From assembly GCA_949282255.1 (NCBI GenBank), contig CASDPA010000002.1:1-64000 (forward strand): a stretch of 64,000 nt of DNA. The letters run 5' to 3'. This document shows positions 18,683 through 30,348 of this stretch, one piece after another. The notes beneath the pieces were generated by a model. That model was given only the letters and a program-made list of their open reading frames with translations. It was not told the origin of the DNA and did no database searches. The DNA comes from an uncultured Spirochaetales bacterium (lineage in GTDB: Bacteria; Spirochaetota; Spirochaetia; Sphaerochaetales; Sphaerochaetaceae). Both the position numbers and the translations under genes were made by a program. Each line of letters opens with the position of its first letter. Position 1 is the first letter of the stretch.

Positions 18683-18955
18683 TCATCCCTCCATGCTGAG
18701 TTCGCATAATGCGTCTTCCAACCCTGCAATACCTTCCGTGTTCTCATCTGTCATAGCTAAAAGGTCTATCACATCCTTTGGTAGTGTAGTCTCCTTATAA
18801 GTCCATTTTGCTGGAACTTCCTTCCCCTCTTCATCCGTATATCCTTCATGAAAAACGAAATCCTTTCTGAGATAAACCACCTTGGAGGAGCTTTCACTCT
18901 CTCTTACAGGTGGTTTAACCTCGCTTATGCATTCAACGTCATGCCACTTCGTCAT
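18683..18955 (-). CDS. Fibre-associated phage protein, unknown function
   Basis: A 90-aa protein starting at ATG 18955, which has AGGAG eight bases upstream and overlaps the end of the reverse transcriptase gene by 17 bp. The middle (YLRKDFVFHEGYTDEEGKEV) and the DVIDLLAMTDENTEGIAGLE end recall small proteins located after tail fibre genes. It does not look like the four-helix Avd accessory protein of known DGRs, but it is the only small gene coupled to the reverse transcriptase and should be considered. Confidence 0.6.
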   Translation of the reverse strand: MTKWHDVECISEVKPPVRESESSSKVVYLRKDFVFHEGYTDEEGKEVPAKWTYKETTLPKDVIDLLAMTDENTEGIAGLEDALCELSMEG

Positions 18956-20021
18956 TATTTCTTCTCCTGTCATATGTGCTAATATATCTTCGCATCTTTC
19001 CAATATTTACTTTCGGTTCTATGTACCTCATCCAATATCCCTTGGTGGTCGTACTCTTGTAATACCCGATGTATGATGTCATCTGTCTGCAATCGTAAAT
19101 CGTAGCTTTCGTTTTCCTTGAAATGCGATTTGCTTTTCTTCTTGACTTCATCAATATGGATTTTCTTATTGTGGTTCTGTTTCGATAGAATCGATATCCC
19201 ATGAAATCCAAATCCCTGCCGATTTCCTTTCCGTCTTTCTTTTGATAATTGAATTTAACAACCTGCCAATTGGCTTTAAGTTCAAGACCATCTTCGGAAA
19301 GTTTTTTCATTATCGCTTTCCTCATCTTATGTAATTCACGCTTGTTATCTGAGAATATGACCATATCATCCATGTATCGATAATAAGCAGGGACTTTCAG
19401 TTCTTCCTTCAACCAATGGTCAAAATTCATGAGATAGAAGTTTGCAAGCCATTGTGAAAGATAGAAACCTATCGGTATCCCTTTCGGTACAACATCTATG
19501 ATTGTGAAAAGAACTTTTAGAAATCTTTTATCCCTTATCACCTTGGAAAGCTTTTCTTTCAACTTCTCATGTGGAATGGATTCAAAATACTTCTTTACAT
19601 CTAATTTCAGATAATATCGGATGTTGCGATTCTTCTTTATGAGTTTTTCAATGTGCTTCTTTCCAAGTGTAGCGCCTCGATTCGGAATTGATGCATAGGA
19701 ATGCTCATACATCCCTTTCATGAAAATCCTCTCCATCACAATACACATTGCATGTTGTACTACAAGTTCAATAAATGTTGGTACAAGTATCGTTCTCTTC
19801 TTTCTACTTATTCCGTCATATATTACTTTAGGTTCATGTTCGTCATTCTTGTAATCCGCAAGTCTTTCTCTCACTTTGATTTTGAATGACTCCACATCTT
19901 TCAACGCTTCCTTGACATCTCTTCTTCTCTTCCTTTTCTTGCCTTTTGAAGCGTTTTTAATTGCAAGGTCAAGAACAGCATCGCTGTTACATTCTTCAAA
20001 GAGTCCGTTATAGCTCTTCAT
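18939..20021 (-). CDS. DGR-type reverse transcriptase
   Basis: A 360-aa protein. Catalytic Asp141 lies in LKLDVKKYFESIP; the second motif, GIPIGFYLSQWLANFYL (residues 181-197), has the I-G-x-x-x-S-Q form diagnostic of diversity-generating retroelement enzymes, not group II introns or retrons. YMDD is at 216-219. RGATLGKK (115-122) and the basic C-terminus after 290 also fit. It copies the template-repeat RNA with errors at adenines and supplies cDNA for replacing the variable repeat. GAAGGAAA precedes the ATG. The template repeat lies about 120 bp upstream and the target gene before that. Confidence 0.95.
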   Translation of the reverse strand: MKSYNGLFEECNSDAVLDLAIKNASKGKKRKRRRDVKEALKDVESFKIKVRERLADYKNDEHEPKVIYDGISRKKRTILVPTFIELVVQHAMCIVMERIFMKGMYEHSYASIPNRGATLGKKHIEKLIKKNRNIRYYLKLDVKKYFESIPHEKLKEKLSKVIRDKRFLKVLFTIIDVVPKGIPIGFYLSQWLANFYLMNFDHWLKEELKVPAYYRYMDDMVIFSDNKRELHKMRKAIMKKLSEDGLELKANWQVVKFNYQKKDGKEIGRDLDFMGYRFYRNRTTIRKSILMKSRRKANRISRKTKATIYDCRQMTSYIGYYKSTTTKGYWMRYIEPKVNIGKMRRYISTYDRRRNNDEVA

Positions 20022-20139: not shown

Positions 20140-20247
20140 TAAAGACCTGCCTCAATGTTCCAATTGACATTGCTAACAGTGTTGTTCACATTCACGTAGA
20201 ACACTCCGAAATTAGCACCATTGCTAACGTTACCACCGTGATACGGA
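20140..20247 (-). repeat. DGR template repeat (TR)
   Basis: This 108-bp stretch aligns without gaps to 20357-20464. It matches at 91 positions and differs at 17, all adenines on the coding strand of TR. TR codons at the variable sites are mostly AAC/AAT, which by adenine mutagenesis can reach many residues while avoiding stop codons. It sits between target gene and reverse transcriptase, the standard DGR order. Confidence 0.97.
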
Positions 20248-20337: not shown

Positions 20338-21699
20338 CTATACAGGTGGTTTAAAGGAAAGACCCGCCCCAAAGTACCAATAGACAAGGCCAACAGTGTT
20401 GTCCACATGCACGCAGAACACTCCGAAATAAGCACCAGAGCTAACGTTACCACCGCGAAACGGATATCTATCAGAGACATCATCGTTAAACCATAATCCA
20501 TCTGCATAATAAGTAGATGATGATGCTCCATCTCCTACTTCCACAGGTACGCATGAGCCTGATATATCGAACAACATGTTCTTGATATATGCATTTTTAT
20601 ATCCCTGTCCTATGCCGCTCTCTCCATTATACCTGATAGGCTCGTTGTTAAGATTTATATAGCCGTCTCCGTTATTGTTATACCCTTCGACTGCTGAGCC
20701 GTCCTGCATACCCCATGTATACTTAACCTTATAGACTCCATTATCAACAATAAGTCCTGCAAATCTCTGCCAGATGTTGCCCCACCAGTTTTCCATGCCG
20801 AAAACCTTTACAATATCACCTGTGTTGTTTGAGGCATTCTTACCATAGAAAAGACCTTTGTCATTTCCTGCCCCACTAGCTTTGATACCGTAATAATTCT
20901 CTCCCGTAGGATGTGATTCATCGTACCCGTTCCAACCATAGCCATATTTGGACTGTGTATCTGTCGATTTGCACATCAAGACCAAAAGCATGTTGATAAG
21001 CATGATGTCCGACCATACCTCTGTGTACCAATAAACCGCATCAACTGGATTATTGGCTTTAGCAAGAGTAATCTCCTGCGTACCATTCTTGTTATGACAT
21101 GGCATCTGTCCTGAAATACTTCTAAGCCTTGCAACACCATCAGTACCAGTAACCTCAGAGCCGTTGTAAATCCTAGTATAAAAGTGGTCTACCTCCACAC
21201 CCTGATTATTTGTGAAAGACCAGCAATGATAATTCTCATCAACCTTGTAATCAGCAATATATACATCCGCACTCTTACCATCGGATGACGGCTTGATACA
21301 CATCCATATCTTCTTCCCGTTCTGCCCCCATTCCATCATCGCATTACCTTCATAATCAACATTTGCGATATCGGAAGCCTGACCGTTCGCTTTCTTTGTG
21401 TAGTCGTTCTCATCCAGATAATAATCAACTGTTCCATCATACTTGACCATGCACGGCCTCGGCATGAAGAAAGCATCTTTCCAGCCTCCCCAAACGAACT
21501 CATCGTTAGTGAAATCATAATAAGCAGGTTCTAATCCTACCGCATTTTCAAGATATGTCACTTTGTCATCTGGATTGGATTCATTGCCGTTTATGTGGAA
21601 TCCATAAACCGTTCCACCGCCTCTTATAGCCTGTGTGACCGCCTGTATCGCCTGTACTACGTTTTTCAACGTATCATCACTTGCCACTCTGTTACTCAT
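20338..21699 (-). CDS. DGR target: variable C-type-lectin-like tail-tip protein
   Basis: A 453-aa protein. After a short helical N-terminus (residues 1-27) comes a large domain with formylglycine-generating-enzyme/C-type-lectin features (GMENWWGNIWQRFAGL, then DRYPFRGGNVSSGAYFG). The last 37 or so residues (412-448 of 453) are the variable repeat. There TR-encoded Asn, Tyr, Ser or Glu have become Ser, Tyr, Cys, His, Asp, Gly, Leu and Phe, while scaffold residues stay fixed. This is the ligand-binding face in known DGR proteins. The gene overlaps the coiled-coil stalk gene by 8 bp, pointing to a shared receptor-binding assembly. Confidence 0.92.
   Translation of the reverse strand: MSNRVASDDTLKNVVQAIQAVTQAIRGGGTVYGFHINGNESNPDDKVTYLENAVGLEPAYYDFTNDEFVWGGWKDAFFMPRPCMVKYDGTVDYYLDENDYTKKANGQASDIANVDYEGNAMMEWGQNGKKIWMCIKPSSDGKSADVYIADYKVDENYHCWSFTNNQGVEVDHFYTRIYNGSEVTGTDGVARLRSISGQMPCHNKNGTQEITLAKANNPVDAVYWYTEVWSDIMLINMLLVLMCKSTDTQSKYGYGWNGYDESHPTGENYYGIKASGAGNDKGLFYGKNASNNTGDIVKVFGMENWWGNIWQRFAGLIVDNGVYKVKYTWGMQDGSAVEGYNNNGDGYINLNNEPIRYNGESGIGQGYKNAYIKNMLFDISGSCVPVEVGDGASSSTYYADGLWFNDDVSDRYPFRGGNVSSGAYFGVFCVHVDNTVGLVYWYFGAGLSFKPPV
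20357..20464 (-). repeat. DGR variable repeat (VR)
   Basis: The 108 bp match TR (20140-20247) except at 17 TR adenines, of about 29 present. Homology stops abruptly on both sides. It ends 17 bases before the stop codon of the target gene, and the invariant 3' end (GGGTCTTT) is the likely homing-initiation region. Confidence 0.97.
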
Positions 21700-25954: not shown

Positions 25955-26132
25955 CAAAACACTCCAATAAAATGTAAAAAAGAATCGCTATGAAAAACAT
26001 TCCTAACGAAATCCAGAGAGGTATCAAAACAATAGGCCAACTCCATGAAATCAGATTCAATAGTTTCAAGACTATGAATATAATCTGCAACACCCCTAAA
26101 ACTCCCATTCCAGAACTACCCTTTTCTGCCAT
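25935..26132 (-). CDS. Small two-helix membrane protein
   Basis: A 65-aa protein with two hydrophobic segments (residues ~10-30 and ~34-58) and a short basic end. It overlaps both neighbours (17 bases upstream, 20 downstream), so it is part of a coupled unit. Similar tiny membrane proteins are frequent in phage accessory regions; function is unknown. Confidence 0.6.
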   Translation of the reverse strand: MAEKGSSGMGVLGVLQIIFIVLKLLNLISWSWPIVLIPLWISLGMFFIAILFYILLECFDGWQRK

Positions 26133-27156
26133 TCTTCATCCTCTCCGTCACTTCATTTTTAAACTCGATAATCTCGGATTTCCCATAATCAGCATCCACC
26201 ATCCCACCATAAAGGACTATCTTCTTAGGAGTGAGACGTTTGACCATCTCTCCAACCCCGTTCCTGTAAATCAATAACGACTCCTCAGAGCGTTTGACAC
26301 CGACAGTTGATATCGCTAATACCTTTCGCTTCGGCAAGCCGTCAAAACAAAATGTATAGCTCTCAGGAGCAGACCAAGAAACGGTAGGTATGACTTTCAA
26401 ACCCTGTCTCTCCATCATCTGCCCTATGAGCCTAGAGCGATAGACGTTCCATATCTGCATTGCAATAGGCATATCAAGGTAAAGTGAGAAATCAGGGGTT
26501 AAGACGCATTTGAATTTCCTCAACCGCTCTATGTTGGTTAGAGGGTCATTCCATACCCTTTCAAATTGATAATCATCTATGAAGAAATGCACACCCATGT
26601 CAAAGTCCTTGGATGTCTTCGCATAGTTGAACCCTATGAATCTCTCTGGAATCACATCAGAGCCGTGTATGATTGGCATCTGATAGAATCCATCACACGA
26701 ATTGGTATCGAACTCTCCAAGATTATATGCATCATCAGTCCTGTGCCTCTCGTTGATGTCATCATCGTCATCATCGATTTCAAGCTCCTCATCCTCATCG
26801 ATTTCAAAACCGAAATCAGACATGTCTATGTCCAAGTCCTCAAGTTCCTCGACAAGCAGTTTGTCATCCCATCTTGAGGCTTCCGACACCTTGTTGTCCG
26901 CAAGACGAAATGCCTTAATCTGCATCGGGGTAAGGTCATCAGCAACAATGCATGGCACTTGCGAAATATGTAGCTTCCTGCTAGCTTCGAACCTTGTATG
27001 TCCTGCTACTATCACGTTGTCCTTATCAACGACAATCGGTACTTTGAATCCGAACTCTTCAATACTCTTCGCCACCTTGTCTATAGCGTCATCATTCTTC
27101 CTCGGATTCTTTTCATATGGTCTCAATTCATCGAGTTTCTTATAGATTATCTGCAT
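26116..27156 (-). CDS. ParB-like nuclease domain protein with C-terminal DUF4417-like domain
   Basis: A 346-aa protein starting at ATG 27156, with GGAG seven bases upstream. The N-terminal ParB/Srx-like domain has LRPYEKNPRKND and the active-type motif VAGHTRFEASRKL. A highly acidic linker (about residues 115-140, with a run of Asp) leads to a C-terminal domain of ~190 residues (VHFFIDDYQFERVWNDP, then LTPDFSLYLDMP, VLYGGMVDADYG), which looks like DUF4417. Free-standing ParB-like genes near terminases are common; some are nucleases or control DNA modification. No methylase is adjacent. Confidence 0.75.
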   Translation of the reverse strand: MQIIYKKLDELRPYEKNPRKNDDAIDKVAKSIEEFGFKVPIVVDKDNVIVAGHTRFEASRKLHISQVPCIVADDLTPMQIKAFRLADNKVSEASRWDDKLLVEELEDLDIDMSDFGFEIDEDEELEIDDDDDDINERHRTDDAYNLGEFDTNSCDGFYQMPIIHGSDVIPERFIGFNYAKTSKDFDMGVHFFIDDYQFERVWNDPLTNIERLRKFKCVLTPDFSLYLDMPIAMQIWNVYRSRLIGQMMERQGLKVIPTVSWSAPESYTFCFDGLPKRKVLAISTVGVKRSEESLLIYRNGVGEMVKRLTPKKIVLYGGMVDADYGKSEIIEFKNEVTERMKNGRKG

Positions 27157-27260
27157 CAGCTTTCTCCAATTTTTAAAAGCGGCACGAGAAAGCAACAACA
27201 ATGAAAAATTTACTTAGAGGAGATAACGATAAAAAAACAATCAACACCCGTGCCGCCATT

Positions 27261-27304
27261 AAAAATCCCCAATGTGTGAAGGAGGTAGAAACACACATTG
27301 GGGA
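27261..27304 (-). terminator. Strong intrinsic terminator after the late regulator gene
   Basis: A perfect 13-bp stem (27266-27278 with 27292-27304) has a 13-base loop and is followed by five U on the minus strand. A second, wide inverted repeat (GCGGCACG/CGTGCCGC) flanks the next 70 bp. Together these make a well-defined end for the early transcript. Confidence 0.85.
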
Positions 27305-27372
27305 AGTAGCCAAATCCCTTAAAATTCTACGATTATATTAAAACATGGGACTTCTACAAAATAAACTGAACA

Positions 27373-27804
27373 TTACTGCATTTTACTGCACTCGAACCTG
27401 TACCGCTCGGAAAGCTCTTTCAAGACCTCACCATGGCTTTTGTATATCTGTCTTTCACTGTATCCAGATTTCCTCACTATCTCCTTCCATGTAAGACCTT
27501 CGATGTATCTGGAATACATCAGCCATCTTTTGAAATCATCCGTTATACTCTCAATCATCACACATGCATCTTTTTGGAGCTTAACATCCTTAACCAACAG
27601 CCCTTCCACTTCATCCCGAAATGATATAAGCTTGACGAGTGCATCAGTCCTCTTATGTGACGGGTCTCCATTACCATGAGGCATGTCCGATATGATGGGA
27701 GAAACATAAACCGTTGAAGATTCCATCTCTTCGAGTTTCCTCTGTTTGATGCGACAGATGTCCCCCACATACTTGATGTTCTTGAAATATTCCTTTGCTG
27801 TCAT
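27373..27804 (-). CDS. ArpU/RinA-like late transcription regulator
   Basis: A 143-aa protein. The C-terminal half contains a sigma-region-4-like helix-turn-helix (RYIEGLTWKEIVRKSGYSER, then QIYKSHGEVLKEL), as in the ArpU/RinA/DUF1492 group that switches on phage structural genes. It lies after the replication genes and before the packaging genes, the usual place. It is followed by the strongest terminator of the prophage and preceded by the iteron array. Confidence 0.75.
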   Translation of the reverse strand: MTAKEYFKNIKYVGDICRIKQRKLEEMESSTVYVSPIISDMPHGNGDPSHKRTDALVKLISFRDEVEGLLVKDVKLQKDACVMIESITDDFKRWLMYSRYIEGLTWKEIVRKSGYSERQIYKSHGEVLKELSERYRFECSKMQ

Positions 27805-27836
27805 TTTTGACCTCTTGGCTAAGGGTCTTCCTTAGC

Positions 27837-28228
27837 GGTAACACTTGAAAAACAGCCTTAATTCATTCTACCAAAATAAATTACTTTTGTCAGGTAACAC
27901 TTGGTAACACTTGAAATTGAGCAAGTGTTACCTCGTAAATATCTATACTAAAAGTAATTATTCGAAAAGGTAACAGGGTAACACTTAAAACCTCAATTCC
28001 ACTTATATATTATATATAGTATATACTATATTACTCATTTACTAAGTATTCCTATAATATAATAAATAAGAAGGTAACACTTGAAGTGTTACCTTGAAAT
28101 AATTCCTTCTACTATAGATATTTAGATAGGTAACACTTGGTAACACTTGAGGTAACACTTGCCCTATAAAATATCATCTAAATCCTTACAGTAGCCGAAA
28201 TTAGCAAGGTAACACTTGGGTAACACTT
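27837..28228. repeat. Iteron-like array, candidate phage replication origin
   Basis: Twelve exact copies of GGTAACACTT occur in 392 bp, ten in one orientation (27837, 27893, 27903, 27977, 28073, 28129, 28139, 28151, 28208, 28219) and two inverted (27923, 28084); a truncated copy is at 27969. Adjacent copies are 10, 12 or 11 bp apart, about one helical turn. One pair forms a perfect 25-bp palindrome at 28071-28095. The middle (28000-28070) is extremely AT-rich. It directly follows the primase-helicase gene. Confidence 0.85.
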
Positions 28229-30116
28229 AGTCATCACTAACATACATCCTGAACACCTTTCCTGCCACTTTTGATGTCTTTGTCTTAACATTTGCACTCC
28301 TGCATATCTCCTTGCTGAATGTCTGTTTGTTCATCTCCTTATATCCATTCTCGATACAGAAAACCCTGTATTGTCTGTAAACCTCATCGGTAGACCGTCC
28401 CATTACTTCATTCTCAGCGATGAATGAAAGCACTGGATTGTTCTCAATCTCATATTGTCCAAGAGCTTTTGTGACAATATCTGCATGCGTGAAATCCTTT
28501 CTCATCAATACACGTTTGAGTCCTTCAATGCCAATCCGTATAAGATACTCTATCGACTCCTTGCTTTTGAGTTTTGAAACGATGTACGGGTCGTAATCCT
28601 CATCATCTGGTGAGAACTTGGCATTGAACGGGACGATGACCATTCTTCTCAATACAGCTCCCGTCTTGTCCTTCATCCTTGGAATCTCATTGGCACTGAA
28701 AAAGAGCTTGCAGTATGGTTTAAAAAAGAAAACATTCTCCCCTTTGTATTCGCCTTTCAATGCATTACCAGATACTATCTTCTTAAACGTGCTAACACTC
28801 CTCCCCTGTAGAAATTCATCGCTGATATCATCTCCGATATTGACAAGCTTACCAGCAAGCTCCGCAATGCTGAATCGCTCATCAAGCTCCCCCAAATCCA
28901 GATTGGAACAATTGGAATCGCCGTATATCTCCTGCAACACTTCAAGAAACGTACTCTTACCATTGCTCTTCTCTCCTGTGAGCATGAAAGCTTTGGAAAG
29001 CTCGTTTCTCCTAAACATCCCATAACCTATGCATTCTTCCAGAACCGCCCTCACCTGATGGTCGTTGCAAGAAAGCTTATCAAGCGTCCTGTCCGTCAAC
29101 TCGCAATAAGCATCGGGATTATAATCATGCCTGATGATGTTCCTTGTCACCACATCAGGTGTAGGAGGATTGATACTTCCCGTTTCAATATCAAGTACCC
29201 CGTTGTTGAAAGTTATATATCTAGGCTCAGCACTTTCTATCGACTCGGCAAGTACCGCATCTATGTATTTCGCTACCTCAGTCCTATATCTTGATTGAAG
29301 CGTCCTAATATGCCTCACACAGAGGCTATCTATCATGTCGTTGGCATTCACATACTCACCATCCTTGTAGTAGCAGAGTACCCCGTCAATCCTTTTAATC
29401 TTGTGTTCCGCAATCAGGTAGTCTCCGAACCTGTCATGAAGAAACTTCCCTTTCGAAAAGAAGGTTTCCTCTGGGAAAGCGTCATCCCTCGTAATCCTGT
29501 CTATATCCTTATCGGAAAGCTTATCTTCAAACACATACTTGTTGATTATGGAAAGCGTCTCCCTGCAATCATCCTTGGTGAATCCGTGATTAATCAAAGT
29601 GAGGATGTAAGAATACAGCGTGCTGTCCCTTCCGTCTCCGTCCTGCATCCCGTATAAATGCCTGTCCGTTGAATCTATAGGTAACATCCATTTGGGTATC
29701 TTCTGATAGTCCGAATCCTCATCCTTGTCAAAGACCACCTCTCTGGTCTTTCCGTTATATTTGAGACATGCGATTGAGTTCTCACATCCAACCTTGATAT
29801 CGGCCTTGATGCCACATGCCAGATAAACCCCTGTCCTGCACTTCCTTACCCCGTCATTGTAGAAGAAGAAATGCATCCCTTTAGTGGTCTGTCTCATCCT
29901 GCATTCAAGCTGTAAGTCTTCAACCATGTCGGCCAGCAACTCAGCCTGTTCCTTGTCATCGACATCTATGAGGATTGCGTCATCGGATAGCACACCTGCA
30001 TACTCGTCAAGTTTGGAAGCCTCCTCGTAAGTGAGAAGGTTTCCAGCGTCCTTATATTTCTGCAAAGGTGCTTTTCCTTTCGTCTTTACATATCCCTTGA
30101 AGAAAATATCATTCAT
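28227..30116 (-). CDS. Primase-helicase (primpol plus D5/SF3 helicase)
   Basis: A 629-aa protein. The N-terminal part (1-170) looks like a primase-polymerase/bifunctional domain (AILIDVDDKEQAELLADM, then TKGMHFFFYNDG). The C-terminal half is a D5/P4-type SF3 helicase: Walker A GEKSNGKSTFLEVL, then NIGDDISDEFLQG, KLFFSANEIPRMKDKTGA and the arginine region LRRMVIVPF. ATG 30116 is preferred because GGAG is six bases upstream and it overlaps the previous stop. The protein likely opens the origin, and the adjacent iterons are its probable binding sites. Confidence 0.92.
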   Translation of the reverse strand: MNDIFFKGYVKTKGKAPLQKYKDAGNLLTYEEASKLDEYAGVLSDDAILIDVDDKEQAELLADMVEDLQLECRMRQTTKGMHFFFYNDGVRKCRTGVYLACGIKADIKVGCENSIACLKYNGKTREVVFDKDEDSDYQKIPKWMLPIDSTDRHLYGMQDGDGRDSTLYSYILTLINHGFTKDDCRETLSIINKYVFEDKLSDKDIDRITRDDAFPEETFFSKGKFLHDRFGDYLIAEHKIKRIDGVLCYYKDGEYVNANDMIDSLCVRHIRTLQSRYRTEVAKYIDAVLAESIESAEPRYITFNNGVLDIETGSINPPTPDVVTRNIIRHDYNPDAYCELTDRTLDKLSCNDHQVRAVLEECIGYGMFRRNELSKAFMLTGEKSNGKSTFLEVLQEIYGDSNCSNLDLGELDERFSIAELAGKLVNIGDDISDEFLQGRSVSTFKKIVSGNALKGEYKGENVFFFKPYCKLFFSANEIPRMKDKTGAVLRRMVIVPFNAKFSPDDEDYDPYIVSKLKSKESIEYLIRIGIEGLKRVLMRKDFTHADIVTKALGQYEIENNPVLSFIAENEVMGRSTDEVYRQYRVFCIENGYKEMNKQTFSKEICRSANVKTKTSKVAGKVFRMYVSDD

Positions 30117-30348
30117 CGTCAACTCCGTAGTATGCTCTCGCATAGTAATATATGAGTTCTAGAGACAACCCCTGATATGTTTTTAATTCAAATGCAGGAG
30201 AGATTACCACAGGGGCCGAAAAATAGTAATGCCTCACTCTACAAATGAACTCCTTATATCTCATATTCCAGAAATCAGGAAAACATTCCTCCAAACCATA
30301 AATTGCAGTCTTGATTCTTTCAACTAACAACTCGTCCCTTTCATCCAT
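30109..30348 (-). CDS. Phage protein, unknown function
   Basis: A 79-aa protein rich in aromatic residues (FPDFWNMRYKEFICRVRHYYF). ATG 30348 is favoured over the GTG at 30351 by spacing from GAGGAG. It overlaps both neighbours. No family recognised. Confidence 0.6.
   Translation of the reverse strand: MDERDELLVERIKTAIYGLEECFPDFWNMRYKEFICRVRHYYFSAPVVISPAFELKTYQGLSLELIYYYARAYYGVDDE

Follow-up and report, generated by a model that had tools for sequence, protein, structure and literature searches.

A candidate replication origin in a Sphaerochaetaceae prophage whose iterons covary with the wing of a primase-helicase

The prophage locus and its repeat array

The 64-kb stretch analysed here (the window; positions 1 to 64,000 of contig CASDPA010000002.1, from an uncultured Spirochaetales bacterium of the Sphaerochaetaceae) holds a prophage with most of its genes on the minus strand, comprising replication genes, a primase-helicase, a cluster of 10-bp repeats, an ArpU-like gene, a ParB-like nuclease, and the terminase and structural genes. 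The repeat cluster is very probably the replication origin of the prophage, with its repeats acting as iterons that would be bound by the wing of the C-terminal winged helix of the primase-helicase, a conclusion drawn from covariation between wing residues and repeat bases in related phages. The features of the locus are given in Table 1.

The repeat GGTAACACTT occurs twelve times as an exact match in the window, ten times on the plus strand and twice on the minus strand, with all copies lying within 27837-28228. With one mismatch allowed there are 15 matches, a number reached in none of 100 shuffles, against 2.45 expected. In dinucleotide shuffles of 27830-28235 (n=500) no 10-mer had more than three copies, and in the rest of the window the richest 400-bp stretch likewise holds three copies of any one 10-mer. 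Searching for the 10-mer elsewhere, as proposed in an earlier reading made from the DNA letters without database searches (the sequence-only reading), gave no more copies in the window and just two additional stray copies outside the array in the whole of the organism's own genome. The start-to-start spacings are 56, 10, 20, 54, 96, 11, 45, 10, 12, 57 and 11 bp, such that five of the eleven intervals are of one helical turn (10-12 bp). The left and right sets of copies flank a core that ranks second for AT content among the 86-bp stretches of 10-45 kb. At one end of the array the terminal copy (28219-28228) shares 2 bp with the stop codon of the primase-helicase gene, while the copy nearest the arpU-like gene ends 32 bp before its start codon. 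The sequence-only reading had described this layout, with twelve copies of which ten are direct and two inverted, many of them one helical turn apart, a very AT-rich core between them, a perfect 25-bp palindrome, a terminal copy over the primase-helicase stop and an ArpU/RinA-like neighbour, and each of these elements was borne out. No known RNA elements were found in 27200-28400, a tRNA search was negative, and no DNA-level relatives of the array locus were found among phages.

Table 1. Coordinates of the repeat array, the adjoining genes and the proposed DNA-reading elements.
Feature	Position	Strand	Details	Basis
Primase-helicase, proposed initiator	28227..30143	-	638 aa	Pfam D5_N, DUF5906, Pox_D5; phrog_864 E 9e-168
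C-terminal winged-helix domain of the primase-helicase	28230..28511	-	residues 545-638	AlphaFold2 models, fold search
Wing codons	28269..28277	-	residues 623-625 (T, S, K)	covariation
Right (primase-side) iteron set	28073..28228		7 copies; GGTAACACTT at 28073, 28129, 28139, 28151, 28208, 28219 (+), 28084 (-)	exact matches
Perfect palindrome	28071..28095		25 bp; two 12-bp arms and a central G	formed by facing iterons 28073(+) / 28084(-)
AT-rich core, proposed DNA unwinding element	27987..28072		86 bp, 82.6% AT	base composition
Left (arpU-side) iteron set	27837..27986		5 copies; GGTAACACTT at 27837, 27893, 27903, 27977 (+), 27923 (-)	exact matches
Sigma-70-like promoter match for arpU	27865..27893	-	within left iteron set; CTGACA-17-TAGAAT, TG in front	
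ArpU/RinA-like late regulator gene	27373..27804	-	directly downstream of the array	phrog_36 E 3.6e-17; DUF1492; synteny

Arrays in related phages

The first relatives compared were a close one from IMG/VR and two isolated phages (42-50% identity). They have the same arrangement with other repeats, their iterons being GTAACAGA in L023, ATAAGACA in L024 and GGTATAAGAT in L009. Alignment-based scans then gave 80 viral and 70 genome loci. Filtering reduced 162 loci to 111 chosen arrays, 107 with an aligned primase, 89 with a settled register and finally 73 after removal of primases at least 95% identical. The choice of arrays demanded an AT-rich minimum and, in all loci but one, sites on both strands; the presence of both orientations in all arrays is thus a selection effect and no evidence. 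In the relatives the array is non-coding and has an AT-rich minimum, but its 10-bp iterons differ, most of them sharing one 10-bp register (GGTTCAAGAT, AAGTCAAGAT, GGTAACAGAT, TGTTACGGTT, TGTTACTGAT and the GGTAACACTT of the window). The lowest-GC 60 bp has at least two iterons on either side in 66 of the 73 dereplicated arrays. Twenty arrays could not be placed in the common register, some being probably coding repeats (L052, L077) and others real arrays, of which that of L024 fits only in another orientation.

Arrays that do not lie close to the primase gene are found at 0.5-2 kb downstream (15 arrays), at 2-8 kb downstream (34) or upstream of it (7). No ArpU match was detected within the available stretch in 21 loci, several of these stretches ending shortly after the array, and in L009 the array lies between a dUTPase and an integrase gene with no neighbouring arpU. 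In L041, L048, L092, L105 and L118 two arrays of the same iteron bracket the replication module, one about 9 kb upstream and the other several kb downstream of the primase gene. In L105 the second array precedes a phrog_62 helicase gene and is distant from arpU; genes similar in size to this helicase gene follow the upstream arrays of L092, L085 and L047.

Covariation between wing residues and iteron bases

Mutual information was calculated between the 638 residues of the primase-helicase and the ten iteron bases (6380 pairs) over the 73 dereplicated primases. The top pair was residue 625 with base 1 (z 10.7), followed by residue 625 with base 2 (z 6.5), with the next pair reaching 5.0. A sliding-window partial Mantel analysis controlled for the distance over residues 14-545 placed the best agreement with iteron distance at residues 614-633 (0.376). 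The association between residue 625 and bases 1-2 in this set is close to one-to-one, with K accompanying GG in 29 of 31 cases, R accompanying TG in 19 of 21, T accompanying AA in all 15 and S accompanying GG in three of four.

A tree of residues 14-545 places 25 changes at residue 625 and 24 at base 1, of which 20 fall on shared branches, with 12 of the 20 being a K/R exchange paired with a G/T exchange (hypergeometric p 3.2e-16). The next-best column for base 1 gave 7e-4 and the best co-change pair without residue 625 gave 1.1e-5; since the hypergeometric p ignores branch length, these other columns serve as the control. In the pooled set of 111 rows K was found with G in 47, A in two and T in one, R with T in 34 and A in two, and T with A in 17, such that a rule in which K specifies G, R specifies T and T specifies A holds in 98 of 103 pooled rows. 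For residue 623 and base 5, in a code derived from these same 111 rows, D accompanies C in 30 of 30 and V, I or L accompanies A in 28 of 28.

Closely related pairs follow the same pattern. The primase-helicases of L190 and L203 are 92% identical over residues 14-545, with K accompanying GGTAACAGAT in one and R accompanying TGTAACAGAT in the other as the rule predicts, and the iterons of the 88% identical pair L279 and L286 also differ as predicted. In a separate case, L044 and L053, the proteins are 97% identical up to residue 545 and have different C-terminal domains and different iterons, an apparent natural exchange of the origin-reading domain.

The signal was specific to the primase among the proteins compared. 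The best co-change p was 4.8e-4 for ArpU (52 loci), 5.3e-5 for DNA polymerase (67), 2.5e-4 for SSB (63) and 1.8e-5 for AAA_24 (56), against 2.6e-18 for the primase in the same comparison. The residue-625 rule was correct for 15 of 17 arrays within 500 bp of the primase gene, for all 14 at 500-2000 bp and for 34 of 35 at more than 2000 bp, and because it holds over these longer distances it cannot be put down to shared DNA or to hitch-hiking of neighbouring sequence.

An out-of-sample test was made with two further scans, which gave 116 new loci and among them 54 primases less than 95% identical to earlier rows and to each other. The earlier pipeline, run with a register template neutral at base 1, was used to find the arrays and gave 38 usable arrays, seven of poor register and nine primases with no array. 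Two of the 38 (W and N at residue 625) were outside the rule, and for the remainder residue 625 predicted base 1 correctly in 35 of 36, with G and T about equally frequent there. Taken from these sequence comparisons, the covariation indicates that the proposed initiator probably recognises the iterons through its C-terminal domain.

A search starting from the iterons found 54 contigs with tandem GGTAACACTT or TGTAACACTT, 15 of them with at least four copies in 450 bp, and in most of these 15 there was no relative of the primase within the available stretch. L346 and L349, which carry TGTAACACTT arrays, have R at residue 625 by alignment. In L304 (GGTAACACTT) residue 625 was aligned as V, with K possible by eye, and this locus was left out of the counts; the L311 match was not a primase C-terminus and was left out likewise. 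Clusters of TGTAACACTT (5-13 copies) with no detectable primase relative in the available stretch were seen in L338, L351, L329 and L347.

Structure of the primase-helicase

The D5_N domain, the superfamily 3 (SF3) helicase core and the C-terminal winged helix of a D5-type primase-helicase are all present in the prophage protein, as judged from Pfam, phrog_864 and AlphaFold2 models. The full-length model has a predicted local distance difference test score (pLDDT) of 87, and its best fold match is the SaPI5 primase-helicase 7OLA (Z 34.8, over residues 223-631). In the modelled winged helix the recognition helix spans residues 606-616 and the wing strands span 619-626 and 629-636, with residues 623 and 625 both in the first wing strand. 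When the C-terminal domain alone was used in the fold search RFX1 was closest (Z 8.2), followed by RFX5, archaeal Orc1/Cdc6 and, as fourth match, the origin-binding domain of P4 (1KA8; Z 6.6, rmsd, root-mean-square deviation, 2.1 over 65 residues).

Proposed mechanism and alternative explanations

In the proposed mechanism, copies of the primase-helicase would bind each 10-bp iteron via the C-terminal winged helix, with the wing, and not the recognition helix alone, reading the bases such that base 1 (G) would be contacted by K625 and base 5 by residue 623. The two sets of bound protomers would face the AT-rich core, which would melt, allowing SF3-type hexamers to load and unwind outwards with primers supplied by the N-terminal part of the protein or by a partner. 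Physical binding, core melting, hexamer loading and initiation are inferred steps of this scheme. An iteron origin with an unwinding region had been the first choice of the sequence-only reading, and it gains support from the way that iteron bases track wing residues.

Several observations weigh against an origin read by the primase-helicase. The array lies within 500 bp after the primase gene in only 17 of 73 loci, and it lies directly 5′ of an arpU-like gene, on the same strand and within 600 bp, in 49 of the 52 loci with an ArpU match, a placement that counts against a pure primase-origin model since such a model does not require it. Exceptions to the residue-625 rule are K with TA (L060), K with AG (L162, L246) and R with AG (L132, L179), while L046 and L129, both among the register-dropped arrays, combine K with a base 1 other than G when placed in their best register. 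The wing reading also does not account for a second, smaller covariation hump, at residues 278-309 (~29217-29312; partial 0.24). The fold matches of the C-terminal domain are modest, with no Foldseek E at or below 0.001, and profile comparison of this domain with that of P4 gave an hhalign probability of just 1.3, such that homology is not established. The iterons of L060, L046 and L129 contain CTAC, and the site is possibly in a different register in these three loci.

The conserved place before arpU, together with the 32-bp gap in the window, would suit an operator cluster at which the ArpU/RinA-like regulator binds repeats before its own gene and autoregulates, the alternative offered by the sequence-only reading. 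As the main function of the array this is very unlikely. Across the 52 loci the covariation of ArpU residues with the iterons does not rise above that of the control proteins (mutual information z 4.2), while the primase wing predicts the iteron; there are also arrays with no adjacent arpU, as in L009, and second arrays before the phrog_62 helicase gene. An iteron origin is strongly favoured over an ArpU operator because the iteron bases follow the primase-helicase wing and not ArpU, DNA polymerase, SSB or AAA_24. Since the array adjoins arpU, a second regulatory role is possible, and the same placement suggests that origin firing is linked to the late switch. In a dual-purpose array the primase-helicase on the iterons would both start replication and control arpU transcription, with late genes waiting for, or silenced by, origin binding. 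Such an arrangement, for which we see a real chance but one well below even, would account for a position before arpU that is conserved independently of the position of the primase gene, and in the window a promoter-like site does lie between iterons. Across relatives, however, promoter-like sites before arpU were found in 11 of 50 loci against 8.7 expected, which is no enrichment and leaves a conserved promoter upstream of arpU unsupported, and the gap may be the sole non-coding stretch between the early and late modules.

A terminator-like match on the minus strand (28095-28071) raises the explanation that the early transcript ends at the palindrome, which would act as an intrinsic terminator with the repeats as by-products. 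Its stem is weak (four of 11 pairs being G-C), as is its tail, and it would leave the 12 exact copies, the recurrence of arrays and the covariation with the helicase wing unexplained, making it more improbable still than an ArpU operator. The ParB-like nuclease encoded directly after the ArpU-like gene (26116-27201) is a ParB_N domain fused to DUF4417, and a protein with such a domain close by, or the terminase, could be taken to use the array as a partition or packaging site; homologues of the ParB-like protein are present in just 10 of 162 loci, while arrays are widespread, and this is the least probable of the explanations considered.

On the reading of the array as an origin recognised by the wing, a broader picture may be drawn which we favour slightly. 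Among tailed phages, a large group would have the identity of its origins set by a simple amino-acid-to-base code, with residue 625 reading K=G, R=T or T=A and residue 623 reading D=C or V, I, L=A through an RFX1-like wing in the major groove. The code letter and all copies of the iteron would have switched together repeatedly, co-resident prophages would be split into origin-specificity (incompatibility) groups, and the origin, held before arpU, would couple replication to the late switch.

Other features of the prophage

The same element encodes a terminase, a major head protein and tail proteins. It also carries a diversity-generating retroelement, in which a reverse transcriptase gene (phrog_1423; 18939-20021) adjoins a 107-nt repeat pair. 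Between the template copy (20141-20247) and its variable counterpart (20358-20464) there are 16 differences, all at template adenines, and the variable copy lies within a tail protein gene (20338-21699), at its 3′ end.

Comparison with known origins and initiators

The closest parallels lie in the origins of Staphylococcus aureus pathogenicity islands and other phage-inducible chromosomal islands (SaPI/PICI) and of P4, and by analogy the prophage origin may work like these. In the SaPI/PICI origins an AT-rich region is flanked by two sets of iterons, the whole lying just 3′ of the gene for the initiator (PMC7581432), in the same way that the window array has two iteron sets and an AT-rich core and sits immediately 3′ of the primase-helicase gene, and the SaPI5 protein is the best fold match of the prophage protein. 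Here the carriers are full tailed phages and not satellites, the array is mostly uncoupled from the primase gene and placed before arpU, and the iteron sequence varies between phages and tracks the wing residues. The prophage is not a PICI, since it encodes head, tail and terminase proteins of its own; its origin seems to work like that of a PICI.

In P4 the type I repeats read GGTGAACA on one strand, resembling the iteron class described here, the alpha protein ends in a winged-helix origin-binding domain (1KA8), and there are two iteron regions (ori1 and crr), as in those relatives with two arrays. Alpha differs in having a Toprim-type primase (PMC4234260). It was considered as a test of the wing code and rejected, as the GGTGAACA repeats are present but the wing is not confidently alignable. 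For Cch2 of the staphylococcal cassette chromosome mec (SCCmec), experiment has shown that the C-terminal domain alone binds AAGTG iterons 3′ of its gene (PMC7581432), and the complement of the window iteron (AAGTGTTACC) includes AAGTG. That system differs in having three iterons only, a separate primase pair (CCPol-MP) and a chromosomal cassette, not a phage, as its carrier (PMC7581432).

In RFX1 it is the wing rather than helix B that reads the major groove (PMC4333399), which agrees with the specificity residues lying in the wing of the prophage primase-helicase. RFX1 is a eukaryotic transcription factor, and with its modest Z no kinship is claimed. Covariation between an initiator domain and iterons has been described for the iteron-related domain of geminivirus Rep and for RepA_N and the origin in PLE satellites (PMC10653810, PMC8263062). 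Those initiators are unrelated to the one described here and the correlation, as described, is regional, whereas here two single residues each follow one base. A literature search, covering few subscription papers, found nothing on a wing code or on the origins of these phages, and the wing code appears to be new, as does the conserved location of the array before arpU instead of beside the primase gene.

Implications for phage replication

What was an anonymous repeat cluster becomes a probable origin with a named reader and a testable letter code, with one residue predicting base 1 of the repeat in phages not seen before. This offers a route to locating origins in many uncultured phages of this group and to sorting prophages by origin specificity. 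It also opens the question of how an initiator and a dozen binding sites come to change letter together, and with the array so regularly found before arpU, whether replication is linked to the late switch can be tested directly.
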